From positions 1 through 60,748 of the forward strand of contig JAGAAS010000069.1 in NCBI GenBank assembly GCA_017615125.1: DNA of 60,748 nucleotides, in the 5' to 3' direction. Positions 19,460-46,375 of this stretch are shown piece by piece; position 1 is the first letter of the stretch; each line of letters opens with the position of its first letter. The position numbers were made by a program, and so were the translations under genes. This DNA is from Bacteroidaceae bacterium (GTDB lineage: Bacteria; Bacteroidota; Bacteroidia; Bacteroidales; Bacteroidaceae). The notes under the pieces were generated by a model. The model saw only the letters and a program-made list of their open reading frames with translations. It was not told the origin of the DNA and did no database searches.

Positions 19460-19555
19460 GGAAGATTATGAAGAAAGAATCTCGCCGTATGAAGAAAGAA
19501 AACGGCGAGATGTAGAAAGAAAAAAATTTTTTCCCTTCTTCATATTGAAGGCAAG
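19460..19555 (-). repeat. Dispersed repeat copy 1 (CATACGGCGAGATT family)
   Basis: In the 379-bp gap 19258-19636. An exact core on the minus strand is at 19478-19491, flanked on both sides by AAGAAAGAA. A second half-core, CGGCGAGAT, is at 19503-19511, followed by AGAAAGAAAAAAATTTTTT. The stretch 19503-19539 matches 31071-31107 with one mismatch in 37 bases. The rest of the gap holds a CCCTT(T)CTGCAGAAGGG imperfect palindrome near 19421-19438 followed by T-rich DNA, and otherwise nothing recognisable. Confidence 0.8.
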
Positions 19556-19636
19556 TCCTTTCTCCCAAACGGGAGATGCTGACTCGGAAAAATGACGCTT
19601 CTTTCGCAGGAAATGACGGCTATTCGGAAAGGCTGC

Positions 19637-20617
19637 TTATCTGTCGATAACCCAGTTTGTGTTATGGGGCTTTGTGTCGCGCGGATTGTAAAAAAGTGCC
19701 TTTTCATCGGGAATTTTCAGTTCATAGCGACGTCCCGACTTGTTGTTCAATCCGTCTCCGCGAAGCCAAAGATTCTCCGTTTTCAGTTGGGCCAAGCTGA
19801 CGCCTTGTTCCTTCGCAAAAGCCGTAAGGTCGTCTATCTGGGTGTTAACAACTACCGTCTTCTTGGGAGGAATGTAGGGATAAAGGTCTTCGCTACGAAG
19901 CAGGAAGCCGTAACGGGCGGGATTCTCAAAAACCGTCTTCGCAGCAAGCAGACGGAACATGTAGCGCGAGGTTTCCTCCACCAGAAACATGTCGAGAGCA
20001 CTCGTGACGCCCTGCACCTCCTGTTTCTTGGCGACTCCTCCCGTTCCCCCGTTGTAACTGGCTGCTACCGTCATCCAGTCGCCAAACTGCCGATACGATT
20101 TCTTCAGATAGGCACACGCCGCGCGTGTCGATTTCTCGATATTATACCTCTCGTCGATGTTGTCGTTTACCTCCAAACCATACTCACGCCCCGTCGTAGG
20201 CATGAATTGCCACAACCCGACAGCGCCAGCCGATGACTTGATGCGGGGATCAACGTTGCTCTCGATAACCATCAGGTATTTCAGGTCGTCGGGCACGCCA
20301 CACTCCTTGAGGATTGGCTCGATGATAGGGAAGAACCTGTTTGCGCGCTTGATCATCAGCAACGTGAGCTGATGCGAATAGGTGAAGGCCAGCATCTCCC
20401 TATCCATCCGCTCGTGCAAGTCGGCGCGATCGAGCTTGACTGTCTGCCCGGCAAACTCCACCGACGAGGGCACTCGGGGCGAGGACGAAGCCGAAGGAAC
20501 CTCCGTAAGCGGATGCTCATCCTCCGACACCGACTGGCTGGAAATGAGGAACGGGATGCAGAAACCGATAGCTGCGCCGGCAAGGAAAACGAAAAGAGTT
20601 CTATTTTTCATGTTCAT
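19637..20617 (-). CDS. Membrane-bound lytic murein transglycosylase domain protein (MltD-like)
   Basis: 326 residues from ATG at 20617. The longer frame starts at 20644 but would begin at the edge of the -7 box, so I reject it; ATG 20611 is equally possible. A signal or anchor helix lies in the first 25 residues. The SLT domain shows VIESNVDPRIKSSAGAVGLW with the catalytic Glu near 119, then QFMPTTGREYGL and AASYNGGTGG. These enzymes cleave the MurNAc-GlcNAc bond of peptidoglycan, forming 1,6-anhydro ends. The C-terminus contains PPKKTVVVNTQIDDLTAFAK and LKTENLWLRGDGL, which resembles a degenerate LysM repeat. It is divergent from the RNA methyltransferase gene. Confidence 0.88.
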   Translation of the reverse strand: MNMKNRTLFVFLAGAAIGFCIPFLISSQSVSEDEHPLTEVPSASSSPRVPSSVEFAGQTVKLDRADLHERMDREMLAFTYSHQLTLLMIKRANRFFPIIEPILKECGVPDDLKYLMVIESNVDPRIKSSAGAVGLWQFMPTTGREYGLEVNDNIDERYNIEKSTRAACAYLKKSYRQFGDWMTVAASYNGGTGGVAKKQEVQGVTSALDMFLVEETSRYMFRLLAAKTVFENPARYGFLLRSEDLYPYIPPKKTVVVNTQIDDLTAFAKEQGVSLAQLKTENLWLRGDGLNNKSGRRYELKIPDEKALFYNPRDTKPHNTNWVIDR

Positions 20618-20628
20618 ATTTTCAAGGT

Positions 20629-20662
20629 TTTGGCAAAAATACAAATTTTATTTGTAATTTTG
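20629..20662. promoter_or_regulatory. Divergent promoter region (lytic transglycosylase / RNA methyltransferase)
   Basis: On the plus strand TTTG (20629-20632), 22 bases, then TAATTTTG (20655-20662), 28 bases before the TTG start at 20690. On the minus strand TATTTTTG (20641-20634), 17 bases before the ATG at 20617, without a clear -33 box. The two overlap, so the genes may compete for polymerase. Confidence 0.55.
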
Positions 20663-20689
20663 CAGCCAAACAAAAAAAATACTTTCACA

Positions 20690-22249
20690 TTGGAGACATT
20701 TCAACTTATAGCCAAAACCTTCCAAGGACTGGAAGAAGTATTGGCAAAGGAACTTATCGAACTGGGAGCCAACGACATACAGATAGGGCGCCGAATGGTT
20801 TCGTTTACGGGAGATAAAGCCTTGATGTACAAAGCTAACCTCTGCCTGCGTACCGCCATTCGTATCTTGAAGCCCATTCTGCACTTCAAGGCGCAGGATG
20901 CCGATGAAATCTACGAGAAGCTGAAAACGTTCGACTGGGATTCGTATATGGATGCCAACACCAGCTTTGCTGTTGACTCCGTTGTCTACAGCGACGAGTT
21001 CCGGCATTCCAAGTTCGTCGCCTACAGAGTAAAGGACGCCATCGCCGACTACTTCCGCGAGCGCGACGGAAAACGCCCCTTCGTGCAGGTGACAAATCCC
21101 GACCTTCTCTTCCATATTCATATCGCCCAGGAGGACTGCACGCTTGCCCTCGACAGCTCGGGCGAATCGCTGCACAAAAGAGGCTACCGGCAGGAAACCG
21201 TCGGCGCGCCGCTGAACGAAGTCCTTGCTGCCGGCATGATAATGACGACAGGATGGAAGGGAGAGTGTGACCTCATCGACCCTATGTGCGGCTCAGGAAC
21301 CATTCTCATCGAGGCAGCGCTCATTGCCCGCAACATAGCTCCCGGGCTCTTCCGCAAGGAATTTGCCTTCGAAAAGTGGAAGGACTTCAACCAAGAGCTC
21401 TTCGACGAGATTTATAACGACGACTCCAACGAACGGGAATTCGAGCATCATATCTACGGCTACGACAAAGAGTGGAAAGCCGTCAACATCGCCAAAGCCA
21501 ACGTGCGTGCCGCAGGGTTAACCAAAGACATCGACATCGAGCACCGCCCATTCGAGGAATTTGAGCAGCCGGAAGAAAAAGCTATCATCATCACCAACCC
21601 TCCCTACGGCGAGAGGCTTGTTCCCGACGATCTTCTGGAGCTGTACAGCACCATCGGCACGAAGCTGAAACATTGCTTCCAAGGCAACGAAGCCTGGATT
21701 ATCAGCTACAAGGAAGAGTGTTTCAACAAAATAGGACTGAAACCCTCGGTTATCATCCCTCTCTACAACGGAGCCCTTGCCTGCGAATTCCGAAAATACG
21801 AGATGTTCAGCGGAAGATTCAGCGAATTCCGCGAAGGAGGAGAGAAACTTGACAAAGCAGAACGTCCTACCAAAGAGCGTCGCCCCTTGAGGAAGAGACA
21901 GAATATAGGAGAAGCCGCTACCGAAGGAGACACGGGGAACTACAACCGAGAAGATTTCGAAACGAAAGAAGAGCGGCTGGAATACGAAAAGCGCCGTAGT
22001 CGTCACGACACCTTCATGCAAGAACAAAATGCACGCGCCAGAAAAGAACGCGCTGCCAAAAGAAGCGAAGGAGAAGGCTTCCGTGAAAATTTCAGGAAAG
22101 ACGACAAACGACGCGATTTCAAGAAGGGAGCAGAGCGCAACGACAACAAGAAAGGCTACGCCAAGCGCAAAGAAATAAGTGCAAAGCGTTTTGCCAAAGG
22201 AAAAGAAGGGAACAAAGGCGGTTTCCGTAAATCAAAAAACAAAGAATGA
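20690..22249 (+). CDS. THUMP-domain class I SAM-dependent RNA methyltransferase (RlmL/RlmK N-like)
   Basis: 519 residues from TTG at 20690. The frame stays open upstream, but similarity begins at ETFQLIAKTFQGLEEVLAKE and the promoter lies between. A THUMP domain (about 45-165) is followed by the methyltransferase: DPMCGSGT at 197-204 binds SAM, and NPPYGERL starts at 303. This is the layout of the enzymes that make m2G in 23S rRNA (G2445 in E. coli). The last 110 residues are very rich in Lys, Arg and Glu, a flexible RNA-contacting tail. The S9 peptidase gene starts one base after the stop. Confidence 0.9.
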   Translation: METFQLIAKTFQGLEEVLAKELIELGANDIQIGRRMVSFTGDKALMYKANLCLRTAIRILKPILHFKAQDADEIYEKLKTFDWDSYMDANTSFAVDSVVYSDEFRHSKFVAYRVKDAIADYFRERDGKRPFVQVTNPDLLFHIHIAQEDCTLALDSSGESLHKRGYRQETVGAPLNEVLAAGMIMTTGWKGECDLIDPMCGSGTILIEAALIARNIAPGLFRKEFAFEKWKDFNQELFDEIYNDDSNEREFEHHIYGYDKEWKAVNIAKANVRAAGLTKDIDIEHRPFEEFEQPEEKAIIITNPPYGERLVPDDLLELYSTIGTKLKHCFQGNEAWIISYKEECFNKIGLKPSVIIPLYNGALACEFRKYEMFSGRFSEFREGGEKLDKAERPTKERRPLRKRQNIGEAATEGDTGNYNREDFETKEERLEYEKRRSRHDTFMQEQNARARKERAAKRSEGEGFRENFRKDDKRRDFKKGAERNDNKKGYAKRKEISAKRFAKGKEGNKGGFRKSKNKE

Positions 22250-22250
22250 C

Positions 22251-24179
22251 ATGAAAAAGCATATCCTCTTATTCACCCTTTCCACGCTCTTCGCTTTCAC
22301 TCCCTCTATGACAGCCAGCGCACAGGAAATAACTGGGAAGAAGACTTTTTCCCTTGAAGACTTGATTCCCGGAGGCAAGAACTACAGCAAAATGCGCCCC
22401 GAGAACAAGCGCTTCTACTTCGACGGCGAGAAATGCGTAGAAGGCACAAAGGAAAAAGGACCTGACAAGTTCCCCTATAAGTCGTTTACAAGAGAAAACA
22501 ATCTTTTCGTCTCCACAGCCGACGGAAAGGAAATACAGGTTACCGACGAGCCCAAGGGCGTCGTTTGCGGGCAAAGCGTTCACCGAAACGAGTTTGGCAT
22601 CAACGGCGGAACATTCTGGAGCCCGAAAGGCAATCTGCTTGCTTTCTATCGGATGGACGAACGGATGGTGACTGACTATCCGCAAATAGACTATGCCGCG
22701 CGCTTTGCGGAGCTTCGTCCCGACAAATACCCTATGGCGGGAATGACGAGCCACGTTGTCTCGATAGGAATCTTCAACCCGGCAACCAGCGAAACCGTCT
22801 GGCTGGAAACGGGCAATACGGTAGACCGTTACCTGACAAACGTCAGCTGGAGCCCCGATGAAAAGAATGTCTACGTCATCGAACTCAACCGAGACCAGAA
22901 CCATTCGCAGCTGGTACGCTACGATGCGGCAACGGGAGCCCGGGAAGCCATCCTTATCGAGGAAACAAACGAAAAGTATGTCGAGCCCTTGCACCCTATC
23001 GTATTCCTCCCGTGGGACGACTCGCGGTTTATCTATCAGAGCCAGAAGGACGGATACAATCATCTCTACCTTTATAATACTGACGGCACCCTGATAAGAC
23101 AGCTCACCAAAGGAGAATGGGTTGTTGAGAACATTGTCGGTTTCAACACGAAGAAGAAGCTCATCATCTTCCAGAGCCGCGAGACCTCCCCGCTGAGCAT
23201 CACTACGTGGAAAGTTACCCTCAAGGGCAAACGCTCCCTTCTGGGCGACAGCGAAGGAACACACCGAGTTGTGCTTTCCGAAAGCGGAAATCAATTTATC
23301 GACACCTATTCCAAGCCGGATGTTCCCCGAAAAGTGCAATTAGTGAATGTCATCAGCGGAAAGAGTGAAACGCTCTTTGAAGCCGAAGACCCTTGGGCAG
23401 AGTATGATGTTCCAGAGATTACTGTCGGCACCTTGAAGGCTGCCGACGAAGTAACGGATCTTTACTACCGACTTGTAAAGCCCACGAACTTCAACCCCGC
23501 TGAGAAATATCCCGCAGTAGTATACGTCTACGGAGGTCCTCACGCTCAGAACGTCTCGGGAGGATGGAATTGGGATGTCCGAGGATGGGATATCTATATG
23601 GCTCAGCTAGGATATGTTGTCTTTACTCTCGACAATCGAGGAAGCGCAGGCAGAGGGCTTGCCTTTGAGAACAGCACCTTCCGTCATCTGGGTAGAGAGG
23701 AAGCAAAAGACCAGATGGAAGGAGTCAAACTCCTGCAAAGCCTTCCCTTCGTAGATGCAGAGCGCATCGGAGTGCACGGATGGAGCTTCGGAGGATTCAT
23801 GACAATAACGATGATGACTACTTACCCCGAAGTATTCAAGGTTGGTGTTGCAGGAGGTCCTGTCATCGACTGGAAATACTACGAAGTAATGTACGGCGAA
23901 CGATATATGGATACTCCGCAGGACAATCCTGACGGATATGCCGAATCGAGCCTGCTGAACAAAGCCGGCAAGCTGAAAGGAAAGCTGCAAATTATTATCG
24001 GAGGCAACGACGACACCGTTGTTCCGCAGCACACGATGGCTTTCCTCAGAGCCTGCATCGATGCCGAGACACAGCCCGATCTCTTCATCTATCCCGCTCA
24101 GGGGCACAATATGGTTGGAAGAGACAGGATTCACCTGCATCAGCGAATCACCCAGTATTTCGAAGATTACCTTAAATAA
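22251..24179 (+). CDS. Dipeptidyl peptidase IV-like S9 serine peptidase
   Basis: 642 residues from ATG 22251, one base after the upstream stop. The longer frame from 22179 overlaps the RNA methyltransferase and would spoil the signal peptide [20 protein letters not shown]. An N-terminal beta-propeller domain (about 50-385) resembles DPPIV_N. The alpha/beta-hydrolase part has [17 protein letters not shown] with nucleophile S512, D587 or D588 in GGNDDTV, and H619 in PAQGHNM. DPP IV removes X-Pro or X-Ala dipeptides from peptide N-termini, probably in the periplasm here. It is slightly shorter than the usual 700 residues or more. Confidence 0.9.
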
Positions 24180-24201
24180 ACAGCGCGCAAAAGAGTCCCG
24201 A

Positions 24202-24282
24202 TTTTTTTCTTTCTTCAAAAAAATTTTTCCCTTCTTCATACGGCGAGATTCCTTCTCGAAAAAAATTATTCTTTCTACATAA
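24202..24282 (+). repeat. Dispersed repeat copy 2 (CATACGGCGAGATT family)
   Basis: An exact core is at 24237-24250 on the plus strand, within a segment of TTCTTTCTTC, AAAAAAATTTTT and CCTTCTCGAAAAAAA. It fills almost all of the 107-bp gap between the peptidase stop and purD and ends just before the purD start. Confidence 0.8.
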
Positions 24283-24286
24283 TTCT

Positions 24287-25558
24287 ATGAAACTTTTACT
24301 TCTTGGCAGCGGAGGGCGCGAACATGCGCTAGCGTGGAAAATCAGTCAAAGCCCCAGAGTGGAAAAACTCTTCATCGCTCCCGGCAACGCAGGCACAGCC
24401 CTCGTGGGAGAGAACTTGGCTGTGAAAGCTGATGACTTCGGAGCCATTCGGGATGTCGTACTAAAGAACGGCATCGATATGGTTGTCGTAGGCCCTGAAG
24501 ATCCTTTGGTAAAAGGCATCTACGACTTTTTCAAAGCCGATGAGGCTCTCCGCACGGTTCCCGTGATAGGCCCCTCGAAAGCAGGAGCCCTGCTTGAAGG
24601 AAGCAAGAACTTCGCTAAGGAGTTCATGCAAAGGCACGATATTCCCACAGCACGCTACCAGACGTTCACAAGCGAAACGCTGGAACAAGGAATCGCCTTC
24701 CTGCATACGCTCCAAGCCCCTTATGTGTTGAAAGCCGACGGGCTCTGCGCCGGAAAAGGCGTTCTTATCCTTCCTACTCTTGAGGAAGCGGAAAAAGAGC
24801 TCAAGGAGATGCTCGGGGGCATGTTCGGCACAGCATCCAGCCAAGTAGTTATCGAAGAATATCTTGATGGAGTAGAATGTTCCGTCTTCGTTCTTACCGA
24901 CGGAACCAGCTACAAAATCCTTCCCGAAGCCAAAGACTACAAGCGCATCGGAGAAGGCGACACGGGCAACAATACCGGAGGAATGGGCTCCGTCTCGCCC
25001 GTTCCGTTTGCCGATGCCGAATGGATGAAAAAGGTGGAAGACCGAATCATCCGTCCTACCGTCGAAGGCCTTGCAAGTGAGGGAATTGATTATAAGGGCT
25101 TCATCTTCTTCGGCTTGATGAACTGCAAGGGCAATCCTTACGTCATCGAATACAATGTGCGAATGGGAGACCCTGAAACGGAAACCATCATGCTCCGCCT
25201 GAAAAGCGACATCGTCGATCTCTTCGAAGGAGTTGCCAACGGAGACTTGGGCAAAAGGGATTTGGAAATAGACACAAGAAGCGCTGTCTGCATCATGCTC
25301 GTCTCGGGAGGATATCCTGGGCATTACGAAAAAGGATTCCCCATTTCAGGGCTGAAGGATGTGGAAGACAGCATCGTCTTTCACGCAGGAACAGCCCTGA
25401 AGGAAGGACAAGTTGTCACCAACGGAGGGCGCGTGATTGCTGTCAGCTCTTATGGCGCTACCGGGAAGGATGCCCTTGCGCTCTCGCTGAGAAATGCTGA
25501 ACGGATTAACTTCTCCGGAAAGTACTTCCGAAAAGATATTGGGAAGGATATTCTATGA
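24287..25558 (+). CDS. purD: Phosphoribosylamine--glycine ligase
   Basis: 423 residues, the standard length. ATP-grasp features: an opening [67 protein letters not shown] and the late metal-binding RMGDPETE. The enzyme joins 5-phosphoribosylamine and glycine using ATP, the second step of purine synthesis. Its last four bases overlap the next gene (ATGA). The dispersed repeat just upstream occupies the place where the promoter or leader should be. Confidence 0.96.
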
Positions 25559-26550
25559 GAAATTTTCTTGAACAAACCCTTCGCAGCTATTTCCCGCTGA
25601 TAGCAGGAGTGTTGCTTTTCATCATCCTCTGGGGAGGGTGTCTGGCTGGCTTCTGGTGGAAGCCGCTGACGGAGACAACGCTCTCCTTCTTCGGCACTAT
25701 TGTTACCGTCAGCCCCTTGACTCAGAGCATCGTGTCGCCCCTTTTGTACGTCATTTCCGCCTATCTGCTGTTTCGCACTATCGGTGAGTTTCAGCTTTTC
25801 AGCACGCGCACCCATTTCCCGACGGGTTTGTTCTTTGCCTTAGTTGCCGGCGCCTCGTTTCTCCTTCCTCTTCGGGCAGGAAGCATCTGCCTGCCGATAA
25901 TGATGATTGCTGCCTATATGCTGATGACAACGTATCAGCAGCACGACTCTATCAGCGAATACGTCATCGCCTTCGCCCTCGTCAGCCTTGCTTCCATCCT
26001 GTTTCCGAAGTGGCTCCTTCTCGTGCCCTTCTTCCTGATAGGAGGAGGCTTGCTTCAGTCGCTCACTCCGCGCACCTTTATGGCAGCTCTCATCGGGCTG
26101 ATCATTCCCTACTGGATTAGTGCCGGAATGCTGTTCCTTTGCGACGACATCAGTTCCTTTGTTGTGCCTTTCCAGCAGCTGATTCAGTTTGACGCCATCA
26201 AGTATCAGAGCCTGACGCTCAACGAGATTACCGCTGGGGCGCTGCTGCTGCTCATTGCCGTCCCAGGCATCGTGCTTTTCCCGTCAACGCTCTTTGCCAT
26301 CAAGGAAAAGGCGCGCGTCTGCTACCAGTTCCTGCTGCTTGTCTTCGTTGCCGTCTTCATCCTGGCGCTTCTGCAGCCCACGCTGTTTGCCGACTTGTTC
26401 CCGCTGCTGATGACGATTGCCACGTTGTTTGTTACGAATATGCTCCTTTCGGGCAAGTCCCGTCTGGGGGGTGTTTATCTGCTGATGCTTATCATTTTCT
26501 ACCTTGTATATATTTCTCAGCCACTATGGGAGCCTTTGAAGCCTTTCTGA
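25555..26550 (+). CDS. Uncharacterised integral membrane protein
   Basis: 331 residues with about nine to ten hydrophobic helices spread over the whole length (for example 15-35, 58-75, 92-112, 114-125, 143-160, 175-198, 222-242, 256-275 and 305-325). It resembles a Bacteroidetes family of polytopic proteins without known function that I cannot name with certainty. No charged catalytic motif is obvious. It is coupled to purD by a 4-base overlap and to the DedA-like gene by a 25-base overlap. Confidence 0.75.
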
Positions 26551-26993: not shown

Positions 26994-27074
26994 TGCAGGA
27001 TGATGTTTACCCCGATTTTTCCCTCCTTCGGAGCATGCCCGAGAAACGGCTCCTGGATATGTTTAACGAATACA

Positions 27075-27160
27075 AATTTTTTCTTTCTACATACGGCGAG
27101 ATTCTTTCTTCATACGGCGAGATTCCTTCTCCAAAAAATTTTATTCTTTCTTCAAAAAAA
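27075..27160 (+). repeat. Dispersed repeat copy 3, two cores in tandem
   Basis: Exact cores at 27090-27103 and 27111-27124 (21-base period), between TTTTTTCTTTCTA and TTCTCCAAAAAATTTTATTC. It lies in the 341-bp gap 26994-27334 between the DedA-like and TMEM260-like genes. The rest of that gap has a candidate -7 box (27283-27290) and no credible gene; short reading frames across the repeat encode only Phe/Ser/Lys-rich low-complexity sequence. Confidence 0.8.
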
Positions 27161-27282
27161 GACACGCCTGATGAATCATTCGCAATACTCCTTCAACAAC
27201 GCCTTTTTCTCCGGGCACGCGATGCTGCGAGGGCTTTCCTGCTAAATAACGTTAATTGATGGGATTATTCCGAAATTGTCAC

Positions 27283-30300: not shown

Positions 30301-30712
30301 CCGAATGTTCGTACAGCTTGCCGATCAGCTGATTGCGGAAGGCAAGAACGACAAAGCGCTTGCCGTTCTCAACAAGTGCGAGGAGGAACTTCCCGCCTAC
30401 AACCTTCCTCACAGCTACTTCATGAGCTATTCTCACAGTATGGCGCTCGACTACATCGAGCTGGGCGAGAAGGAAAAAGGCCTTCAGATCCTTTGCGATA
30501 TGGCCGACAACGAAATAGAGTACGCTACGTGGTACCTCAGCCTTTCGGGCAAGAAGTTTGCTACCAACGCCACAAGCTGCCGCTCTAACATAGATACCCT
30601 CTACCGGCTCATCCGCTTTATGGAAGAGGCCGACAATCAGGAAGTTGTCGACCGCTATTCGAAACTATTCGAGGAGATCTACCAAGCATACAACTTCCGC
30701 ATGAAAGGATGA
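27335..30712 (+). CDS. DUF2723 (TMEM260-like) GT-C membrane glycosyltransferase
   Basis: 1125 residues. The start, with AAVVYCLTIEPSASFWDCPE at 19-38 and HPPGAPFFMLV, is the hallmark of the DUF2723 family: an acidic residue in the first periplasmic loop is typical of GT-C enzymes. About twelve helices cover residues 10-380, another group lies around 560-690, and the C-terminal 430 residues are soluble with helical, TPR-like repeats near 985-1110. The human relative TMEM260 is a protein O-mannosyltransferase. By analogy this may glycosylate secreted proteins, and Bacteroidetes are known to O-glycosylate them; substrate and sugar are inference. It overlaps the deacetylase gene by 4 bases. Confidence 0.85.
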   Translation: MKQYKLVNNLMGWLTFAIAAVVYCLTIEPSASFWDCPEFITTGYKLEVGHPPGAPFFMLVANLFSQLVSDPAQVARMVNTMSALLSAGCILFLFWTITHLTKKLICAKDDEMTTSQLVTIIGAGLVGALAYTFSDTFWYSAVEGEVYAFSSFFTAIVFWFILKWEDVADQPHSDRWIILIAYMIGLSVGVHLLNLLCIPAIVLVYYFNRKKEQVTFWGTVLALVISALLVAVVLYGIVPGIVKVGGWFELLFVNRLHMHFNTGLVLYIILLVASLVWSIFATYKKNKSAQKIAFLVTVGMLGIPFLGHGPLSIIVGILILAALTAVLFISKKDVTRLLNTSLLCLLVMVVGYSSYALIVIRSTANTPMDQNSPEDIFTLGDYLGREQYGSTPLFYGQTYASKVKLRVDGRYCVPEIKKGAPIYGKKEKKTADEKDSYVVVSNRDKYIYAQNMFFPRMYSEPHSHYGAQQINLYDQWVPGGIKGHKVKYDQCGEMQTLTIPTMGENLAFFFNYQVNYMYWRYFLWNFVGRQNDIQGNGELENGNWITGIKFIDNLLVGNQTLLPTELKENKGHNVFYGLPLLLGLIGLFWQAFRGKKGMQQFWIIFFLFFMTGLAIVLYLNQTPMQPRERDYAYAASFYAFTIWIGLSVPAVASWLSKLTKKESVLPAAAATVLCLLVPIQMGSQTWDDHDRSHRFMCRDFGQNYLNTLPDHGYPIIYTNGDNDTFPLWYNQETEQFRTDARVCNLSYLQTPWYIDQMRRPAYDSPSVPISWPRLQYVEGTNDYIAIQSDAKKEILSLYKQNPEAAAARFGEEPFELKNILAHWVQSENSDLHFVPTDSVYIKLDKAAILRSGMMIPKEYLGATDEETMSKMPDRMYISLKGKRSLYKNELMMLEMLAQCNWERPIFMAITVGSENHLGLEPYFVQEGLAYRLTPFNWQQLGYVKDAKREFVIDTEKMYDNLMNRFRFGNMNKEGIYLDETITRMACTHRRMFVQLADQLIAEGKNDKALAVLNKCEEELPAYNLPHSYFMSYSHSMALDYIELGEKEKGLQILCDMADNEIEYATWYLSLSGKKFATNATSCRSNIDTLYRLIRFMEEADNQEVVDRYSKLFEEIYQAYNFRMKG

Positions 30713-31512
30713 TCTTCCAGCATCCGATAAAACCGTTCCGTCTGCTCTATCCCTCTGCCCTCTGGAGAATGGATAGGGCAGACGGTTCTGTTTATCTCAC
30801 TTTCGACGACGGGCCTATTCCCCAATCGACACCTTTCCTGCTGGAGACGCTAAGGCAATTCGACGCGAAAGCAACCTTCTTTGTTGTCGGAGACAACGTA
30901 CGCAAATACCCCGAGCTTTTCGAAGCGATTCTCCGTGAAGGGCATGCTGTGGGAAACCACACATTTCATCATCTTCGGGCTAAAAATTGCAGCGTTGCAC
31001 ACTATCTGGACGACATCGGGAAAGCGCAAGATCTTATCGAAAACGCATCCGAATTTTTCGAGAAAGAATCCGGCGAGATGAAGAAAGAAAAAAATTTTTT
31101 CCCTTCTCGAAAAAATTTTTTGGAGAAGGAAAAAATTTTCCTTGAGAAAGAAGATGAGAATACGGGTGAGAATTACGAGGATGAGAAGAAGGAAAACGAA
31201 AAAAACCCTTCTCTCGACTTGAGCGACAACGAAGCTCTCCCGCTCTTCCGCCCTCCGCACGGAACTATCCCCTTGAGGCACTATCGTGCCGTTGCCGAAA
31301 GGTACCGCATCGTCCAATGGGACATCGTCACGCGTGACTATAACCGACACGTATCGGCAGAACACATCGTGCACACGATTCAAGCCTACGCCCGTCCAGG
31401 TTCTATCATCAATATGCATGACTCGCTGCGCAGCATCGACAAGCTTCACACCGCCCTTCCTGCTGCTCTCGAATGGCTCATCCAGCAAGGCTACACCCTT
31501 CAGACTCTCTGA
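30709..31512 (+). CDS. Polysaccharide deacetylase (NodB-type CE4) with an in-frame repeat insertion
   Basis: 267 residues. NodB motifs: TFDDGP at 31-36 with the metal-binding and catalytic aspartates, HTFHH at 84-88, RPPHG at 181-185, W204 with D205, and H237 in NMHD. Enzymes of this family remove N- or O-acetyl groups from glycans. Between motif 2 and motif 3, residues about 111-175 form an extra, highly charged Lys/Glu/Asn/Phe segment encoded by the dispersed repeat found in intergenic regions. The frame is kept, and all catalytic motifs survive, so the protein may still be active with a disordered loop. It is coupled by ATGA to the upstream gene, and queG starts 1 base after its stop. Confidence 0.88.
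   Translation: MIFQHPIKPFRLLYPSALWRMDRADGSVYLTFDDGPIPQSTPFLLETLRQFDAKATFFVVGDNVRKYPELFEAILREGHAVGNHTFHHLRAKNCSVAHYLDDIGKAQDLIENASEFFEKESGEMKKEKNFFPSRKNFLEKEKIFLEKEDENTGENYEDEKKENEKNPSLDLSDNEALPLFRPPHGTIPLRHYRAVAERYRIVQWDIVTRDYNRHVSAEHIVHTIQAYARPGSIINMHDSLRSIDKLHTALPAALEWLIQQGYTLQTL
31050..31160 (-). repeat. Dispersed repeat copy 4, inside the deacetylase gene
   Basis: A variant core CGGCGAGATG starts at 31071, followed by AAGAAAGAAAAAAATTTTTT and CCCTTCTCGAAAAAATTTTTT, then a GGAGAAGGAAAAAATTTTCC palindromic run. 31071-31107 equals 19503-19539 except for one base. It contributes coding sequence without a stop. Confidence 0.8.
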
Positions 31513-33411: not shown

Positions 33412-33492
33412 ATATGAAGAAAGAATCTCGCCGTATGAAGAAGGGAAAATTTTTTATTCCTTCTCGAAAAAAATTTATGTAGAAAGAAAAAA
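33412..33492 (-). repeat. Dispersed repeat copy 5, between kduI and kduD
   Basis: An exact core on the minus strand is at 33424-33437, with GAAGAAAGAA before it and GAAGAAGGGAAAATTTTTTA, TTCTCGAAAAAAATTTAT and GTAGAAAGAAAAAAT after it. It abuts the kduD start codon, so the kduD translation-initiation region is made of repeat sequence. Confidence 0.82.
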
Positions 33493-35700: not shown

Positions 35701-35841
35701 TCTCTTTTTGCAAAAGGTATCTTCTCTTTTGCAGAATGAAACGCGCAGCACGGAGCTGACAACAAATGCCGGCTCCGCTTATTTTTTCCCTTTTGTAGGA
35801 CTTTCGGGATTTTTTCTTTCTCCAAGTTGTTTATACCATCG

Positions 35842-35920
35842 TGAAGGCTCACGTGTTCCTTCATGAAGGTTAACGTGTTCCTTCGTGAAGGCTAACGTGT
35901 TCCTTCGTGAAGGTATAAAC
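35842..35920 (+). repeat. Tandem repeat, 22-bp period, 3.5 units
   Basis: Units of TGAAGG..AACGTGTTCCTTCG start at 35842, 35864, 35886 and 35908 (partial). CCTTCGTGAAGG spans each junction and can fold. The array is bracketed by GTTTATACC (35829-35837) and its complement GGTATAAAC (35912-35920). It lies in the 453-bp gap between the DUF4861 gene and rpsO, which otherwise holds the two terminators and nothing else recognisable. Confidence 0.85.
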
Positions 35921-39491: not shown

Positions 39492-41470
39492 AAAGCTGTA
39501 AGCTCCTGCCTATTCTTCTTGTCGGCGCGGCAGTTGCCACCATCGTCAGCTGCGCTTCCATCGGCTCGCCCGACGGAGGCCCTTACGATGAGACACCGCC
39601 TACTTTCCTCGGAAGCTCACCTGCCCAGCGTGCTGTAAACGTCGACCAGCAAAAGGTGACGCTGGAGTTCGACGAATACATCAAGATAGAAAAGGCCAAC
39701 GAGAAGGTGGTCTTCTCTCCCCCTCAGATTTCGCAGCCCATTATCAAGACAAGCGGGAAGAAAATCATCGTTTCCATCGAGGATTCTCTCCTTTCCAACA
39801 CTACCTACACCATCGACTTCAACGACGCTATCGTCGATAATAACGAAGCAAACCCCTTGGGCGACTTCGCTTTCACGTTCTCTACGGGCGATCATATCGA
39901 CACGCTGTGCGTCTCGGGCCTCGTGCTCGACGCCTCAAACCTCGAGCCTGTTGCCAACATCCTCGTCGGGCTCCACAGCAACCTGGAGGACAGCGCCTTC
40001 ACCACGAAGCCCTTCGACAGAGTGAGCCGCACGGATGCGGAAGGGCACTTCACCATCCGCGGAATAGCCGAAGGCAGCTACCGAGCCTACGCCCTGCAGG
40101 ACATGAATCAGAACTACATCTTCGACCAAAAATCGGAGATGCTCTCCTGGCTCGACTCGCTCGTCGTGCCCACTACGGAGGTTCGTATGGAGCCCGACAC
40201 CCTTTGGATTGACTCGCTTACTATCGACACCATCCGCATCCTTCCCGTCACGCACTATCTGCCCGAAGACCTCGTGCTGCTTGCCTTCACCGAGACGCCC
40301 ACGTTCCGCTATATGCTGAAGAGCGAGCGCCCCTCGCTGAACAAGTTCAACCTGCTCTTCTCTACCCCCAGCGACAGCCTTCCCCTCATCGAGCCGCTGA
40401 ACTTCCCTGCCGACTCGGGATACATCGTGCAGCCCAACGCGGGGAACGACACCATCGTCTACTGGATGCGTGACTCCCTCTACTACTATCAGGATACGCT
40501 GGCGATGGTTGTCACCTACCCTGCGACAGACACGCTGGGCTTGCTCTCTCCCCGTACCGACACGCTTCGCTTAGTGCCCAAGAAGACGCGCGCAAAGCTG
40601 TTGGAGGAAGAGGAGAAGAAACGCAAGGAGGAAGAGAAAGCCCGCGAGAAACGTCTGAAGAAGGGCGACTCGACAATCGTCCAGAAGCCCGCGCCCGTGC
40701 TCTCCGTGAAAATCGGAGGCGGAAGCACGATGGACCTGAACTCGCGCATCACCGTTTCTTTCGACGAGCCGCTGGAGTCGTGGAACGATACCGCCTTGCA
40801 CCTCTACCGCAAGGTCGACTCGCTCTTCGTCGACGAACCCTTCGTCTTCCGCCAAATCAAGGGACAGCTGCTCCAGTACGAGCTGCTGGGCGAGTGGCGC
40901 CCCGAGGAGGAGTACAAATTCTCCATCGACTCGGCAGCCTTCAAGGGCATCTACGGGCTGGCATCGAAGAAGACCGACACGAGCTTCAAGTTCAATCCTC
41001 TCGACAAATATAGTTCCTTCACCCTCCGCATCGAAGGAGCACAGCGCTTCAACGCCCTAGGATCGAAGCTGCAGGCACAGCTCGTCGACAAGTCCGAGAA
41101 GGTTGTGCGGCAGGTAACCGTCACCGACGGCGCAGCAAACTTCTACTTCCTCAAGCCCGCAACTTACTACGTACGCCTGCTCTACGACCTCAACGGCAAC
41201 GGCGTTTGGGACACGGGGCTCTACGAGGAGCATCGGCGCGCCGAACCGCTCTACTATTATAATAAAGGTATCGAGATGCGCGAGAACTGGGATTACAGCG
41301 AGGACTGGAACCCTCTCGCAGCCCCCATCGACAAGCAGAAGCCTGCGGAGATGAAGAAAGGAAAGGCAGAGAAGAAGGAGAAGAAATCGAAGAACGAGCA
41401 GCGCGAGGAGCAGAAGCGCAAGCGCGCCTCCGGGCAGAGCTCGAGCCGAGGGGGCAACTTCGGATTCTAA
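39488..41470 (+). CDS. Large lipoprotein with N-terminal Ig-like (Big_5) domain
   Basis: 660 residues with a lipoprotein signal ending at IVSC (C22). Directly after it, SPDGGPYDETPPTFLGSSPA and VTLEFDEYIKIEKANEKVVF followed by YTIDFNDAIVDNNEANPLGD and FAFTFSTG form a Big_5-like Ig domain. A carboxypeptidase-regulatory-like beta-sandwich follows (VSGLVLDASNLEPVANILVG, about 140-215). A coiled coil with KRKEEEKAREKRLKKG is near 375-400, a second Ig-like unit at 405-500, and a Lys/Glu-rich tail. Similar lipoproteins occur across Bacteroidetes without assigned function, probably on the cell surface. The start overlaps the previous stop by 4 bases. Confidence 0.82.
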   Translation: MKSCKLLPILLVGAAVATIVSCASIGSPDGGPYDETPPTFLGSSPAQRAVNVDQQKVTLEFDEYIKIEKANEKVVFSPPQISQPIIKTSGKKIIVSIEDSLLSNTTYTIDFNDAIVDNNEANPLGDFAFTFSTGDHIDTLCVSGLVLDASNLEPVANILVGLHSNLEDSAFTTKPFDRVSRTDAEGHFTIRGIAEGSYRAYALQDMNQNYIFDQKSEMLSWLDSLVVPTTEVRMEPDTLWIDSLTIDTIRILPVTHYLPEDLVLLAFTETPTFRYMLKSERPSLNKFNLLFSTPSDSLPLIEPLNFPADSGYIVQPNAGNDTIVYWMRDSLYYYQDTLAMVVTYPATDTLGLLSPRTDTLRLVPKKTRAKLLEEEEKKRKEEEKAREKRLKKGDSTIVQKPAPVLSVKIGGGSTMDLNSRITVSFDEPLESWNDTALHLYRKVDSLFVDEPFVFRQIKGQLLQYELLGEWRPEEEYKFSIDSAAFKGIYGLASKKTDTSFKFNPLDKYSSFTLRIEGAQRFNALGSKLQAQLVDKSEKVVRQVTVTDGAANFYFLKPATYYVRLLYDLNGNGVWDTGLYEEHRRAEPLYYYNKGIEMRENWDYSEDWNPLAAPIDKQKPAEMKKGKAEKKEKKSKNEQREEQKRKRASGQSSSRGGNFGF

Positions 41471-41613
41471 CGCTGCAAAGCCCGTTACCTGCTATTAACC
41501 TATTGGCCTTTAGCCTTTTCGCCCAACACCTGATTATTTGATCATCTTATATCTGATTCCCCGATAAACCTTTTCCTCTCCAAGATGTCTAATAATTGTA
41601 AGAAACATCGGAA

Positions 41614-42414
41614 ATGAAGAAAACCTCATATATCCTTGCCCTCCTTATCCTCATCAGCATAGGCTTAAAGCCGAATGCTGCATGGGGCACGCCGGCGCTT
41701 CTCGCAAGCGACAGCGCTGCTGCGACGCTCATCGACGGCGAGCGCCTCTCCTACACCCTCTTCTTCAACTGGAAGTTCGTCTGGATCAAGGCAGGCGACG
41801 CAAGCCTCACTACCCGCAGCACCACCTACAAGGGCACCGACGCCTACCGCTCCACCCTTCTCGGCTGCACCAACAAGACTGCCGACGCCATCTTCCGCCT
41901 GCGCGACACCCTCACCACCATCGTGCGCTCCGACGCACAGCCGCTCTACTTCGTCAAGCATTGCCAGGAGGGCGACGACATCGTCTACGAGCGCGCCTGG
42001 TTCACACAGCCCAAAGCAGGCACCTACATCGCCAAGCAGACGAAAGTCTATGTCGACGGGCATGAGCGCAACACCGAGTTCTCACGCACGGCGCCCATCT
42101 TCGACATGATAAGCCTCATGCAGTACGCCCGCACGTTCGACATGAGCACCCTCAAGGAAAACCAGCGGCTTGTCTATCCGATGGTGACGGGAAAGAAAGT
42201 CGAGGAGCAGACCCTCATCTATCTGGGAAAGAAAACGGTAGAGAAGCTCTCGGGCGACAAAGCCCCCTGCCACGTGTTCTCCCTCGTGCAGGCCGACGGC
42301 AAGGGCGCCGAAGCCGAACTCCTCCGCTTCTTCATCTCCGACGACGACAAGCACATCCCTATCCAGATAGACATCACGCTGAAGTTCGGTACCGCAAAAG
42401 CAAAACTCAATTGA
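41614..42414 (+). CDS. DUF3108-family periplasmic protein
   Basis: 266 residues with a signal peptide (MKKTSYILALLILISIGLKP). The body, GERLSYTLFFNWKFVWIKAG, a central DTLTTIVRSDAQPLYFVKHC and the end RFFISDDDKHIPIQIDITLK then FGTAKAKLN, fits DUF3108, a beta-rich family of unknown role. It follows the Ig-like lipoprotein after 143 bases and ends at a terminator. Confidence 0.8.
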   Translation: MKKTSYILALLILISIGLKPNAAWGTPALLASDSAAATLIDGERLSYTLFFNWKFVWIKAGDASLTTRSTTYKGTDAYRSTLLGCTNKTADAIFRLRDTLTTIVRSDAQPLYFVKHCQEGDDIVYERAWFTQPKAGTYIAKQTKVYVDGHERNTEFSRTAPIFDMISLMQYARTFDMSTLKENQRLVYPMVTGKKVEEQTLIYLGKKTVEKLSGDKAPCHVFSLVQADGKGAEAELLRFFISDDDKHIPIQIDITLKFGTAKAKLN

Positions 42415-42445
42415 CGGGAAAGATGTCAGCAAATGAAAAAGGCAA

Positions 42446-42484
42446 CGCAGGGATGAACCAGTTTTCATCCCTGCGATTTTTTCT
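42446..42484 (+). terminator. Terminator after the DUF3108 gene
   Basis: CGCAGGGATGAA (42446-42457) pairs perfectly with TTCATCCCTGCG (42464-42475), and ATTTTTTC follows. It lies 32 bases after the stop. Confidence 0.88.
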
Positions 42485-42735
42485 TTCTACATCTCGCGCG
42501 TTTCTTTGAGCATATTTTTCTATGCTCTTCCTCTGTCGCGACTCAGCATAGCTCAAACAAGTTTGGCTCTGCCTTCGCTGCTCCATCGGTTCTTCATACG
42601 GCGAGATTCCTTCTCGAAAAAGAAATATTCCTTCTCCAAAAAAAAATTTCCCTTCTCGAAAAAAAAATTATTCTTTCTTCATACGGATTTTTGAAGAAAG
42701 AAAAAAATCTTTTCCCTTCTCCATAATTCCGTATG
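42476..42735 (+). repeat. Dispersed repeat copy 6, long form
   Basis: Fills most of the 354-bp gap between the convergent DUF3108 and pectinesterase genes. It has an exact core at 42595-42608, repeated TTCCTTCTCGAAAAA and TTCCTTCTCCAAAAA units (42608-42665), and a hairpin of TTCTTTCTTC with GAAGAAAGAA near 42670-42700. No gene is supported here: a 62-codon frame across it encodes only Phe/Ser/Lys-rich sequence. Confidence 0.8.
42502..42614 (+). repeat. 113-bp direct repeat, left copy
   Basis: Identical over 113 bases to 46256-46368 and in the same orientation. The unit has a hairpin GAGCATA-tttttc-TATGCTC (42508-42527), a TCGCGA hexamer, a CAAACAAGTTTG palindrome and the CATACGGCGAGATT core near its right end. 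The two copies bracket the pectinesterase gene. Confidence 0.92.
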
Positions 42736-42768
42736 TGTTCTTCTCTCTCAGCGAAGCTTTCTACTGCA

Positions 42769-45700
42769 TCATTTTACGAAAAACTTCTTTTTCTGCGCGA
42801 TTTTCACGCCGCGCGTATGCGGTGAAGTCTCTCTTCCCGACAAGTCGTATAGTTTGTCGCTGACAGCTGCCGAAGGAGGCATCACGGAAGTATCTACGGC
42901 TGCCGAAGGCTCACTCAGCCCTCCCATTTCGTTAGCAGCACGCACTGTCCAGACACCCGGCTCCGCTCCTACTGCATAGCTGGCGGTAGTAGTGAAATCA
43001 ACTACATTTCCGTCTTTGCACACAGCCCAGCAGAGCACGTGCTCCGACGTGTCCCACGTCATCATGCCCTCTTGAAGGGTTACCCCTTCAGGCGCCGAAG
43101 CCTGCTCGGTAGCTTCCGTCGGGTCCCATCCGTCGCTGTCTCCCATCACGTTCTGCAACGTAAGCTCGGCTGCTTCTTCGGCAGAGAGCACGGGATTGTT
43201 CGTATGTCCGTCGCCGAAAGTTGTCTTGCGTTTCGACATATCGATAGGAGAGCCTGCTGCGGTGCGGGAGTTATATTCGGCAAAGCGCTTGGGCCAACCG
43301 CCGCTCATCTCGCTCCATCCAGCTGCCGAAGGCTTTGCTATCATCGTCGTATTGACATACAGGGCTATCGGTGTGCCCGAGCCCCAGGGGCGTCCGAGAG
43401 TGAACGTGCCGTCTGTTCCGGAGCTTTCGGCAGTAAGCACACAGTCGGAGAAGACGTATCCGTACTTTCGGGGTGCGGAAGGAGCCGTGATGTAGCCTCC
43501 TGTGCCGCAGTTGCGCAGTTCGACTCCGTTCCAGAATCCGTCTCCCTTCCCGCACAAATAGTCCGTTCGCCCGCGTATCACGCCTCCTTCGAAGTAATAT
43601 CGTCCGTTCTGGTTGTTCGAGCAGTAGGTATCCTGATAGCCGTAGAGGCAGACGTTCTTCAGAATGGTCTTGTCGGCATTGTCTTCCAAAGCCTCACCTC
43701 GCCCGCAGGCATCGTTGAGCCCGCTTCGGAGGGTGATGTCCTGCAGATAAGTGTTGGCAGCCGTTTTATTCAGGAAAAGCACAGTGACGTTGTGCAGCCC
43801 CTCAATGGGATAGGCTGTGCCGCTGGGCGTGTTGTCCTTCAGCTCGTTCCGCACGACTGTCTCATCGCGGCTTTCCCCGATGATGGAGACATACGGCGAA
43901 GAGAGGTACGTGATAGGATTTGGGAGCGAGACGCCGTCGTCGTTGGTGATGAACTCCGTCGTACTGTAGGGCAGCAGGTACGAGCCCTTCTTCACGAAGA
44001 TGCGGAAGCGGCTTGTCTTGTCCTTTCGTGCGTCAGCAGCGGCGATTGCCTCCTTGAACGTCCCGTCGTCGGGCACGATGAAGTCAAAGAGCTGCTTCTT
44101 CACGGAGCTTTTGTCGCGAGTGGAGAAATGGATGACGATGTCTTCGGAGAGGATGTTGTTCCCCGACAAATCGGCAACGGAGCCAGCCTTGAGCACAAAG
44201 GTGTAGGCTGTGTTGTATGCCAATCCGCTGTACTCAGCCCTCACGTTCTTCCCCGACACGCTGAGTGCCAGCTCCTTGCCGTCGAGCACAGCGTGGGCGT
44301 CGCTCGTCAGCTGCACCTTCTTGTCGAAGGTGAGGACCACCCTTCCGTTAGCTGAGGCAGAAGACTCCCCTTCGTTAGGCACAGAGCTCTCCAGACGGGG
44401 AGCCTTTCCGTCGTCGATGACCTTGTGCGTGCCGTAGATGAAGATGTTCGTGATGGAGGCGCCGTCGTTGCCGCTGCTTCCTGCTATTTCCGACGTACGG
44501 TCGGCAATCCAGCGGATGAAGAGCTTCGGCTGGTTGTCTGCCTCGTGGGGAAGGAGTATCTCACTCTCTGTCCATCGTTTCGTGCCCTCCATGTGGATGG
44601 AGCCTGCCTTCGTCCACTCCTCTCCGTCAAGGGAAAACTCTACCAGATAGGTGGTATAGGCATTGTAGTTGTAGAGCATCTCGCTCGAGACGATGATGTC
44701 GGTGAAATCCTTCACGTTCACGCACGTCTGCCAGTAAAAGTCGCCTATGCTGCTTTGCCAAGCTACCGCAGCAGGCTTGCCCTCGTAGCCGCCTGCAGCT
44801 TCCTGACTCTTGTCAAGCCAGCCTTTCTCGGTGCCCGAGGCGGAGCGCATCACTAGCACATCCAGGTCGTTGTCGTCAGTGTAGAAGTCAGCCGCGCGGC
44901 TTGAGTTACCCTTGCGGATGAAGTCCCATCCTGCTATCACGTCGTACGTTGCCGAATAGTGAGCCGTGAGGGTTACGTCCTTGTCCATCAGCACCTTAAT
45001 GCTGTTGCTTGTCTGCCCGTCACTCCAATGCGAGAAGGAGAGGATTTTGTTTGACGCAGCCGTGAGCGTCACCTCCGTCTGCTCCTCATACATCTTCTTC
45101 GTATCTATCAGCGTGGGTGCGGGCGAGAGGTCCACCATATAGTCGTTGGCTCCTCCCTCTACGCTAAGGTCTAGGCGGAACGTCTCCAGCTGGGTGAAGT
45201 TAGCTGTGAGCACTTCGTCGTGCGTCACCGTATAGACAAATGACTCCTCCTCCGAGACAACCTTTCCGCTGCCGTCTGTCCAGTTAGTGAAGTGGAAGCC
45301 GAAGTTGGGCGTAGCGCTGACTGTCACCTGCGTGCCCTCGTCGAACTGCGTTCCTGCGGGCGAGACGGCTGTGGAGCAGGCAGCGGGCGGATTGCTGGCG
45401 GTAGTGAGCGAGTAGCGCGCCACATTCTCGCGCGTGCCGTTCAAAATGCCCTCGATGCAGATGTTGGCAAAGCCGCCTTCCTTGCCTTCGTTCACCCCGA
45501 CGGTTGTCTGCAGAACAAATTCTTCTGTGGTACTGTATCGCCGCTGAAGCTCCTCGGGAAGGGTTATCTCAAAAAAGTTGGCATAGTTCGACTCAGAGCC
45601 GTATTTATCCTCGCTCTGCGTCTTGTTGTTGCGTGCTGCCGTGAACGAGCCCAGGCTCTGCGACGTTTCGTTTGCAAAGATGCTCACTACGACTCCGTCC

Positions 45701-46122
45701 TTCGCATCGGTGCCGAAGCGCTGGATGTTCCCGCTCACCTTTGTGGGAGTGAACGTGAGCCCTCTTGCAGGCTTCACTACCCAGCGCACCGACTTGGTGG
45801 AGCCCGAAGGACGCAGCTTGATGTACGTAACTCCTTGCGGAGAGCCCGTTCCCGTGCCTGTCAGCTCCAAGTCGCCCAGCTCCACGTTGACAACCGTAAA
45901 CCCCTCCTCGGGCGAGGCAGCAAACGTCTCGGGCTTCAATACCGACGAGAAGGGCCACGTGACTCGCGCCTCCACATTGTCGTACGTATCGTCGTCGGCA
46001 AGAAGCATTCCTGCTGCCTGCGGCGTATTAGTGCTTTCAAGAACATCCCTCGAAGGGTTTCCTGCTATCATAGAAACACTTGCCGTCAGGCATGCAGCAA
46101 AGAGTATTATCCTGTTTTTCAT
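42769..46122 (-). CDS. Secreted multidomain pectinesterase-like protein (CE8)
   Basis: 1117 residues from ATG 46122, where a signal peptide MKNRIILFAACLTASVSMIA begins; the ATG at 46188 only adds 22 residues before it. Order: beta-rich N-terminal domain (to about 230), two glycine/tryptophan InlB-like repeats (FGFHFTNWTDGSG; LSFSHWSDGQ), a discoidin-like sandwich (about 405-560), a Big_5 Ig domain, then the CE8 right-handed helix from about 677. CE8 landmarks: YGYQDTYC near 829, GRTDYLCGKGDGFWNG near 853 in place of the usual DFIFG, and LGRPW near 909. The end, LYDLSGRETSPH and VKIAQKKKFFVK, is a Bacteroidales secretion-type tail. Pectinesterases remove methyl esters from homogalacturonan. 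It is flanked by 113-bp direct repeats. Confidence 0.87.
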   Translation of the reverse strand: MKNRIILFAACLTASVSMIAGNPSRDVLESTNTPQAAGMLLADDDTYDNVEARVTWPFSSVLKPETFAASPEEGFTVVNVELGDLELTGTGTGSPQGVTYIKLRPSGSTKSVRWVVKPARGLTFTPTKVSGNIQRFGTDAKDGVVVSIFANETSQSLGSFTAARNNKTQSEDKYGSESNYANFFEITLPEELQRRYSTTEEFVLQTTVGVNEGKEGGFANICIEGILNGTRENVARYSLTTASNPPAACSTAVSPAGTQFDEGTQVTVSATPNFGFHFTNWTDGSGKVVSEEESFVYTVTHDEVLTANFTQLETFRLDLSVEGGANDYMVDLSPAPTLIDTKKMYEEQTEVTLTAASNKILSFSHWSDGQTSNSIKVLMDKDVTLTAHYSATYDVIAGWDFIRKGNSSRAADFYTDDNDLDVLVMRSASGTEKGWLDKSQEAAGGYEGKPAAVAWQSSIGDFYWQTCVNVKDFTDIIVSSEMLYNYNAYTTYLVEFSLDGEEWTKAGSIHMEGTKRWTESEILLPHEADNQPKLFIRWIADRTSEIAGSSGNDGASITNIFIYGTHKVIDDGKAPRLESSVPNEGESSASANGRVVLTFDKKVQLTSDAHAVLDGKELALSVSGKNVRAEYSGLAYNTAYTFVLKAGSVADLSGNNILSEDIVIHFSTRDKSSVKKQLFDFIVPDDGTFKEAIAAADARKDKTSRFRIFVKKGSYLLPYSTTEFITNDDGVSLPNPITYLSSPYVSIIGESRDETVVRNELKDNTPSGTAYPIEGLHNVTVLFLNKTAANTYLQDITLRSGLNDACGRGEALEDNADKTILKNVCLYGYQDTYCSNNQNGRYYFEGGVIRGRTDYLCGKGDGFWNGVELRNCGTGGYITAPSAPRKYGYVFSDCVLTAESSGTDGTFTLGRPWGSGTPIALYVNTTMIAKPSAAGWSEMSGGWPKRFAEYNSRTAAGSPIDMSKRKTTFGDGHTNNPVLSAEEAAELTLQNVMGDSDGWDPTEATEQASAPEGVTLQEGMMTWDTSEHVLCWAVCKDGNVVDFTTTASYAVGAEPGVWTVRAANEMGGLSEPSAAVDTSVMPPSAAVSDKLYDLSGRETSPHTRGVKIAQKKKFFVK

Positions 46123-46189
46123 CGCTTTGTTGGTTTTTCGTTTGTAAAGATAGGCAGAACTCACGAAAATTCCTCGAAGTTTCTCCAAA

Positions 46190-46375
46190 AAGTCCTATCA
46201 CGAAAGAAAAAACTGTTTTTTCGAAAGAAATTTTTTCTTTCTTCATACGGCGAGATTCTTTGAGCATATTTTTCTATGCTCTTCCTCTGTCGCGACTCAG
46301 CATAGCTCAAACAAGTTTGGCTCTGCCTTCGCTGCTCCATCGGTTCTTCATACGGCGAGATTCCTTCTTAATATG
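46190..46375 (+). repeat. Dispersed repeat copy 7, two cores
   Basis: Exact cores at 46244-46257 and 46349-46362, the second inside the 113-bp unit. It starts with TCACGAAAGAAAAAACTG and lies in the 445-bp gap between the divergent pectinesterase and SGNH genes. The rest of that gap (46376-46567) is AT-rich leader with the SGNH promoter. Confidence 0.8.
46256..46368 (+). repeat. 113-bp direct repeat, right copy
   Basis: Base-for-base identical to 42502-42614. Its first bases overlap the end of another core, so the copy seems to have been added at, or generated from, a pre-existing core. The start-to-start distance is 3754 bases. Confidence 0.92.

Follow-up and report, generated by a model that had tools for sequence, protein, structure and literature searches.

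A family of dispersed 21-base arrays with freely oriented boxes in two related Bacteroidaceae species

Dispersed repeats in bacteria are for the most part fixed mobile elements or else simple tandem repeats. REP and BIME palindromes (GTAG/CGTC-tagged repeats) consist of short units that alternate in orientation, are dispersed between genes and have a link to RAYT, Rickettsia palindromic elements (RPE) insert in frame in genes, and the pneumococcal BOX element is modular; to our knowledge none of RPE, the mycobacterial MIRU and BOX is built of modules that face freely either way while keeping to a grid of two turns. In the sections of the published account drawn on here, BrickBuilt of Porphyromonas gingivalis is described as a minisatellite/MITE built of 23-base bricks with a leader, a tail and IS-like inverted ends, present in 19 copies in ATCC 33277 and always intergenic (PMC4596501). 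The TAACTGA heptamer repeats of Beggiatoaceae, Cyanobacteria and some Bacteroidetes are, in the corresponding part of their description, almost only direct repeats, which in Maribeggiatoa lie mostly close upstream of start codons (PMC4679880).

The repeats considered here lie in a window of 60,748 nucleotides, the whole of the DNA analysed at the outset (contig JAGAAS010000069.1 of a Bacteroidaceae bacterium). They belong to a family of dispersed minisatellite-like arrays of an unusual form, and a literature search of open-licence papers returned no description of this 21-base array family. Like REP/BIME, the family consists of short dispersed intergenic units in both orientations; unlike them, it has no Y1 transposase and no hairpin selection. 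BrickBuilt, as far as the sections cited go, is the nearest published kind, with short tandem units dispersed in a member of the same bacterial order, a high number of copies in each genome and a limited host range (PMC4596501). However, the unit here is 21 rather than 23 bases long, units face either way on one grid, extrapolation puts the arrays at about 390 per genome, leader and tail segments were not seen, and some arrays are found within genes (PMC4596501). The heptamers are a more distant parallel than BrickBuilt (PMC4679880, PMC4596501). They too form many dispersed intergenic short tandem arrays that are absent from the matching gaps of relatives, whereas here the unit has 21 bases instead of 7, occurs in two orientations and shows no preference for gene starts (PMC4679880). 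Orientation-free phase locking over two turns is a feature of the present arrays and, in the cited portions of the two accounts, of neither BrickBuilt nor the heptamer arrays (PMC4596501, PMC4679880).

The initial annotation of the window had described a repeat built on a 14-base core, CATACGGCGAGATT. All eight exact copies that it listed were found again, at 24237, 27090, 27111, 42595, 46244 and 46349 and, on the minus strand, at 19478 and 33424, and its two related cores at 19503 and 31071 correspond to three-mismatch matches at 19499-19512 and 31067-31080. If up to three mismatches are allowed, the window holds 14 matches to the core against a shuffle mean of 4.59, and none of 100 shuffles reached 14. 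The 14-mer proved to be one piece of a modular array. Arrays aligned on the core resolve into 21-base units whose constant part is an 11-base box, Y (TTCYTTCTNCA, that is, the pyrimidine stretch TTCYTTCTNC followed by A), and boxes are separated by a 10-base spacer, X, of A/T type or GC type. The pyrimidine, A/T and TTCTCGAAAAA modules noticed initially are present; what had been missed is the strict 21-base grid into which they resolve, and on which a box may face either way. When boxes were located with regular expressions in 453 kb, their spacing was 21 bases for boxes facing the same way (++ or --, 99 pairs), 20 for diverging (-+, 31 pairs) and 22 for converging boxes (+-, 25 pairs), the spacings required if 11-base boxes of either orientation share one grid. 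The arrays of the window are collected in Table 1.

Table 1. Positions of 21-base grid arrays and of other short-period arrays within the window (boxes are given as + or - in order of position).
Feature	Position	Strand	Composition or context
21-base grid array, boxes - - - +	19470..19541	.	between divergent ORFs 17728-19257(-) and 19592-20236(+)
Array + + +, fourth box one base off grid	24207..24281	+	upstream of purD (24287-25558)
Array + + + +, two exact cores 21 bases apart	27081..27153	+	between codirectional ORFs
Array - - + -	31059..31131	.	in frame inside polysaccharide deacetylase ORF 30709-31512
Array - - + -	33416..33488	.	just upstream of SDR-family gene
Long composite array	42481..42722	.	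boxes flank 84-base (4 x 21) insert, then + + + and + - + blocks
Composite array	46218..46371	+	same 84-base insert as 42481..42722; two exact cores separated by 105 bases (5 x 21)
Short-period arrays	10846..11018	.	21-base CCGAGAGTTTAGTG-type and 22-base GACGCATGCGTC-type units
Palindromic array, 22-base CCTTCACGAAGG-type	35837..35913	.	
Palindromic array, 21-base TTTTATATAAAA-type	52350..52418	.	

The same grammar is present in two related species and one further contig. The window's own genome (G000; 3.03 Mb in 107 contigs, 87% complete, 4% contamination) was sampled over 707 kb (23%), which held 91 arrays with 322 boxes, and a same-genus sister species (G005; 78% identity to G000, genome about 3.4 Mb, 91% complete) over 786 kb, which held 97 arrays with 331 boxes. 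The commonest spacers were TACGGCGAGA (56), AAAAAATTTT (30), AAAAATTTTT (22) and TCTCGCGAGA (8) in G000, and AAAAAATTTT (29), TATCGCGAGA (22), TACGGCGATA (16) and GCGCGCGATA (12) in G005. The family is dispersed, as had been claimed, and occurs through the genome in high copy number, with 144 exact copies of the 14-mer across G000 (77 and 67 on the two strands) and none of a reversed control. A 19-mer with at most two mismatches occurred 224 times in G000, 91 times in G005 and not at all in 59 further genomes searched, of which 17 belong to the same genus. Two Y boxes 21 bases apart were found 179 times in G000 and 143 times in G005; among 397 other genomes of the family, 24 have one or two such occurrences, and 15 were counted in G164, which belongs to another genus and whose spacers differ and are in part palindromic. 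In a scan of species genomes that may omit the window's own, an exact 20-mer was found only in two isolates, RGIG9746 from yak omasum (at four loci) and RGIG7568 from the omasum of a water buffalo (at one locus). RGIG7568 has, besides this single exact site, one three-mismatch match elsewhere; because there is only one exact site, we suspect a misbinned contig from a G000-like species. Spread by phages or plasmids was rejected: viral contigs gave no match to the 19-mer, the stretch 27060-27170 had no match among plasmids, and the one phage record, MT836274.1, matches part of the insert (42526-42591) and not the grid.

Adjacent boxes favour the same orientation, by 158 to 67 in G000 and by 163 to 52 in G005, so that about 30% of neighbours are inverted (67/225 and 52/215). 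Free orientation is unusual for a cooperative site, and this as well as the preference for like-facing neighbours speaks against phased binding. The spacers are closer to palindromes than shuffled ones (mean mismatches out of five of 2.15 vs 3.09, and 2.01 vs 3.11), and some inverted neighbours produce perfect palindromes, for example GAAGAAGGGAAAAAATTTTTTCCCTTCTTC. Perfect GC palindromes look scarce, TCTCG/TCTCG and TACGG/TACGG together accounting for 9 of 87 against about 32 expected, a value worked out by hand from arm frequencies.

The length of the unit is far more constant than its sequence. Among close box pairs with spacers of 3-22 bases, the spacer was exactly 10 bases in 138/141, 35/35 and 27/28 cases in G000 (200/204 in total) and in 101/103, 20/21 and 16/16 cases in G005. 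The exceptions number 4 of 204 and 3 of 140, one of them at the purD array of the window. In A/T-type spacers the point of change from A to T varies widely while length stays constant, and with their A/T make-up so variable the constant length does not come from one frozen sequence. Boxes at array edges that carry two or three mismatches also keep to the grid (57 in G000 vs about 9 per off-grid position, and 52 in G005 vs 9.4), and positions displaced from it by one base show no excess (16 vs 18 in G000, 19 vs 18.9 in G005). These decayed boxes include the recurrent types TTCTTTGAGCA and TTTGTCCA, and because such types may be copied as they stand, they do not count as independent mutations. 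For comparison, noncoding DNA of one close relative showed 9 indels per 73 substitutions, from small numbers and with a crude coding mask. A second repeated element inside the arrays spans exactly 84 bases (4 x 21) in six of eight copies, which may be related by descent, and 78 and 154 bases in the remaining two. The few spacers that depart from 10 bases, and the two inserts that depart from 84, are observations that run against phased binding. Whole-turn spacing that stays constant whatever the spacer sequence, a feature of phased binding arrays, is found here.

The joins between units are informative as to what may be exchanged. The two halves of a spacer are strongly coupled (0.56 and 0.51 bits), the end of Y and the neighbouring arm less so (0.28 and 0.19; 0.08 and 0.19), and within a single Y the two sides vary independently (0.006, a value that 124 of 1000 shuffles reached, and 0.002, which 403 of 1000 reached). 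It follows from this pattern that what is exchanged seems to be a spacer together with the adjoining half of the box on each side. A contig 94-97% identical to G000:C23 retains both of two arrays. The first is in place and of equal length, with ATACGGCGAGA replaced by ATCTCGCCGGC through 17 substitutions in 78 bases and no gap, a cassette swap in the making at this single locus; the second differs by three substitutions in 70 bases, again without a gap.

Comparison of matching loci shows gain, loss or rebuilding of arrays from one species to another and, in one case, the in-frame entry of an array into a conserved gene. The deacetylase gene is present in 13 of 19 genomes of the genus searched, G000 included, and in all 12 of the other aligned relatives the array is absent and the conserved parts of the gene meet directly. 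Such an entry is possible for a short array because its unit amounts to seven codons. The copy inside a gene noted initially does lie in frame in this enzyme; its core is degenerate and not the exact 14-mer, and degenerate modules run on to about 31205. Empty sites, which the initial annotation had proposed looking for, were found also at purD, where four relatives (G009, G012, G016 and G017) have the same upstream gene and a short gap with no array, and where G005 has an array in a different order. Of the other arrays in the window, that at 19470 faces a syntenic G005 gap whose array is differently ordered, that at 33416 a gap with boxes - +, and those at 27081 and 42481 gaps in which an array is absent. 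Over 23 syntenic gaps, arrays were present in both species in 6, in G000 only in 6, in G005 only in 5 and in neither in 6, the 6 occupied in both comparing with 5.7 from the marginals (12 x 11 / 23). The purD site, inside one aligned block, is a further shared site, and none of the seven shared sites has the same orientation string. Shared ancestry of the G000 and G005 arrays was therefore rejected. Both arrays were kept at 94-97% identity and none in the same order between G000 and G005, which points to turnover on the time scale of species. A two-box array within a G005 gene (C5 117283-117313), in an aligned block with no G000 partner, may be a chance pair.

The placement of arrays bears out the initial impression that they follow no gene pattern. 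In 453 kb of G000, with genes called by a simple script, 61 arrays were assigned as 32 codirectional, 9 convergent, 10 divergent and 7 inside genes, with 3 unassigned; two-box arrays in genes may be chance pairs. Per gap of at least 60 bases this amounts to 32/134 codirectional, 9/34 convergent and 10/38 divergent, and in G005 to 57/231, 14/50 and 16/63; of the remaining G005 arrays, 9 lie within genes and 1 is at an end. Array rates are similar across the three kinds of gap, with no enrichment at convergent or downstream positions of the kind that intrinsic terminators show. Within codirectional gaps, pyrimidine boxes lie on the coding strand in 78 of 121 cases in G000, a bias, and in 99 of 196 in G005.

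Arrays of similar period and unrelated sequence occur in the same genome and beyond it. G000 has 22-base palindromic arrays, such as those of CAACGCGTTG (32 units, with none in the G005 sample) and of CCTTCACGAAGG, and three relatives of the same genus have 7- and 8-base arrays instead. In samples taken from first contigs in 16 further genera of the family (at most 20 kb per sample, 283 kb in total), a repeat lag of 22 bases was found 11 times and lags of 19, 20 and 23 bases 0, 1 and 0 times; lags of 21 (8) and 18 (6) may be inflated by coding repeats. The 22-base cases are a mixture of palindromic and non-palindromic repeats.

Dispersal of the family is observed directly; our account of how the grid is held and of how new arrays arise is inferred. 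In the reading that we favour, to which we give a probability of roughly 0.4, these are dispersing minisatellite-like arrays whose helical phase is held by a putative binding protein and whose new members arise by cassette copying. The constant step of 21.0 bases corresponds to two turns of B-DNA, and it could be kept because a putative DNA-binding protein forms oligomers on one face of the double helix and reads box after box, serving either to organise the nucleoid or in cooperative regulation. New arrays would form by the copying of Y-half/X/Y-half cassettes between arrays, joined near the invariant middle of Y, and not by transposition of a fixed element. The constant length is read here as a constraint on helical phase, and it is from the geometry itself that we infer binding; a grid inherited through the copying of whole cassettes could be an alternative to such a constraint. 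It is also possible, if somewhat doubtful, that the arrays are a selfish or neutral minisatellite with no binding protein. At its quasi-palindromic spacers, template switching or slippage would expand the units, ectopic conversion would disperse them, and the 21-base step would be no more than a relic of the founding unit. The excess of tandem neighbours in the same orientation, the near-palindromic spacers, the indifference to gene orientation, and the unrelated 21- and 22-base palindromic arrays in G000 and 7- and 8-base arrays in three relatives all suit such an origin. However, slippage should leave length variants too, whereas lengths are exact even across A/T runs of varying composition and decayed boxes remain on the grid.

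The initial annotation had taken the repeat for a miniature mobile or palindromic element. Its dispersal and its empty sites stand, and a discrete element of fixed form is not supported, the composition and length of arrays varying from copy to copy. A non-autonomous transposon (MITE) served by a transposase in trans would account for the high copy number, for presence and absence between species and for the insertion into a gene, and outward array ends do tend weakly to CATAATT; we nevertheless consider it improbable. No leader or tail with terminal inverted repeats of the BrickBuilt kind accompanies that tendency. The tested inverted ends occurred on both sides in only three pattern hits per species, two of the three in G000 being the same array, and no consistent target-site duplication was seen among the six: flank matches averaged 2.3 vs 1.1 when re-paired for the three G000 hits and 0 vs 0 in G005, the longest being a single match of 4 bases, and intergenic G005 flanks are too diverged to fix exact insertion points. 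The matching transposase was sought as the Y1 family (RAYT/IS200-type, PF01797), with no match in G000 (87% complete) or G005 (91%), on which ground a REP/RAYT reading was rejected. Far less probable still is action at the RNA level, as bidirectional terminators, REP-like hairpins or mRNA-stability leaders. The perfect palindromes made by some inverted neighbours would suit it, whereas the small share of inverted neighbours and the lack of enrichment in convergent gaps would not, and a cmscan of the window against Rfam at gathering thresholds reported a tRNA and no family at any array. Random re-orientation of the boxes moreover gave better folding than the real order (mean rank of the real order 0.66 +- 0.03 and 0.74 +- 0.03, with 0.5 neutral), a result opposite to that expected of hairpin selection, which was rejected.

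A more far-reaching version of the phased-binding reading, which we regard as rather unlikely, is that the arrays form a chromosome-wide lattice. A lineage-specific architectural protein would read one box per two turns, in either direction, at the ~390 sites, and the code of AT and GC spacers and box variants would be rewritten between species through cassette exchange. If this were true, the unrelated 22-base palindromic arrays of G000 and of further genera in the family would represent parallel lattices built to a common design. In these arrays sequence, orientation and order vary and spacing hardly does, so that what is inherited can be separated from what is seemingly constrained. This raises the testable question of whether some bacteria carry genome-wide, helically phased protein sites that spread in the manner of minisatellites.

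Palindromic GC-type spacers between the pyrimidine boxes were scarce in perfect form. In the window's own genome (G000), 9 of 87 spacers were perfect GC palindromes against about 32 expected, and in its sister species they were likewise rarer than predicted (3 of 78, with about 16 expected), both expectations being hand calculations from the frequencies of the spacer arms. The arrays of G000 also harbour a second dispersed element, TTTGAGCATA...GCTGCTCCATCGG, which was found at eight places in the 707 kb examined and spans 84 bases in six of these copies; phage record MT836274.1 contains an 88% match to a portion of the element. Several unrelated palindromic arrays with 21/22-base units (GACGCATGCGTC, CCTTCACGAAGG, CAACGCGTTG and TTTTATATAAAA) are present in this genome as well.

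Array loci and the second dispersed element
Feature	Genome	Location
TTTGAGCATA...GCTGCTCCATCGG element	G000 (window)	42502-42590; 46256-46344
21/22-base palindromic arrays	G000 (window)	10940-11018; 35837-35913; 52350-52418
21/22-base palindromic arrays, further loci		L067, L074, L075, L184, L190-L197
7-/8-base tandem arrays	G012, G016	L103-L115
7-/8-base tandem arrays	G001	L096-L102

The Paludibacteraceae MAG RGIG7568 includes a 26.6-kb contig (L055 / L181-L182) that shares 94-97% identity with contig C23 of G000 over all but about 7.6 kb, which has no counterpart in C23; the contig was probably misbinned.

Two loci of the sister species (L076 and L084) carry arrays of up to about 20 degenerate 8-base units, GATTATCC/GATTACCC/GATTATCT. 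Three other congeneric relatives (G012, G016 and G001) have dispersed 7-/8-base tandem arrays, of the types AATTGAC, GTTGACCT and AGTTAAG, in place of the 21-base family. In another genus of the same family (G164, loci L185-L189), 21-base arrays combine the box TTCCTTCTAC with spacers of the ATTGATCAAT type and run on, in register, into TTCTTACACT/CACTGAGTCAGTG units.
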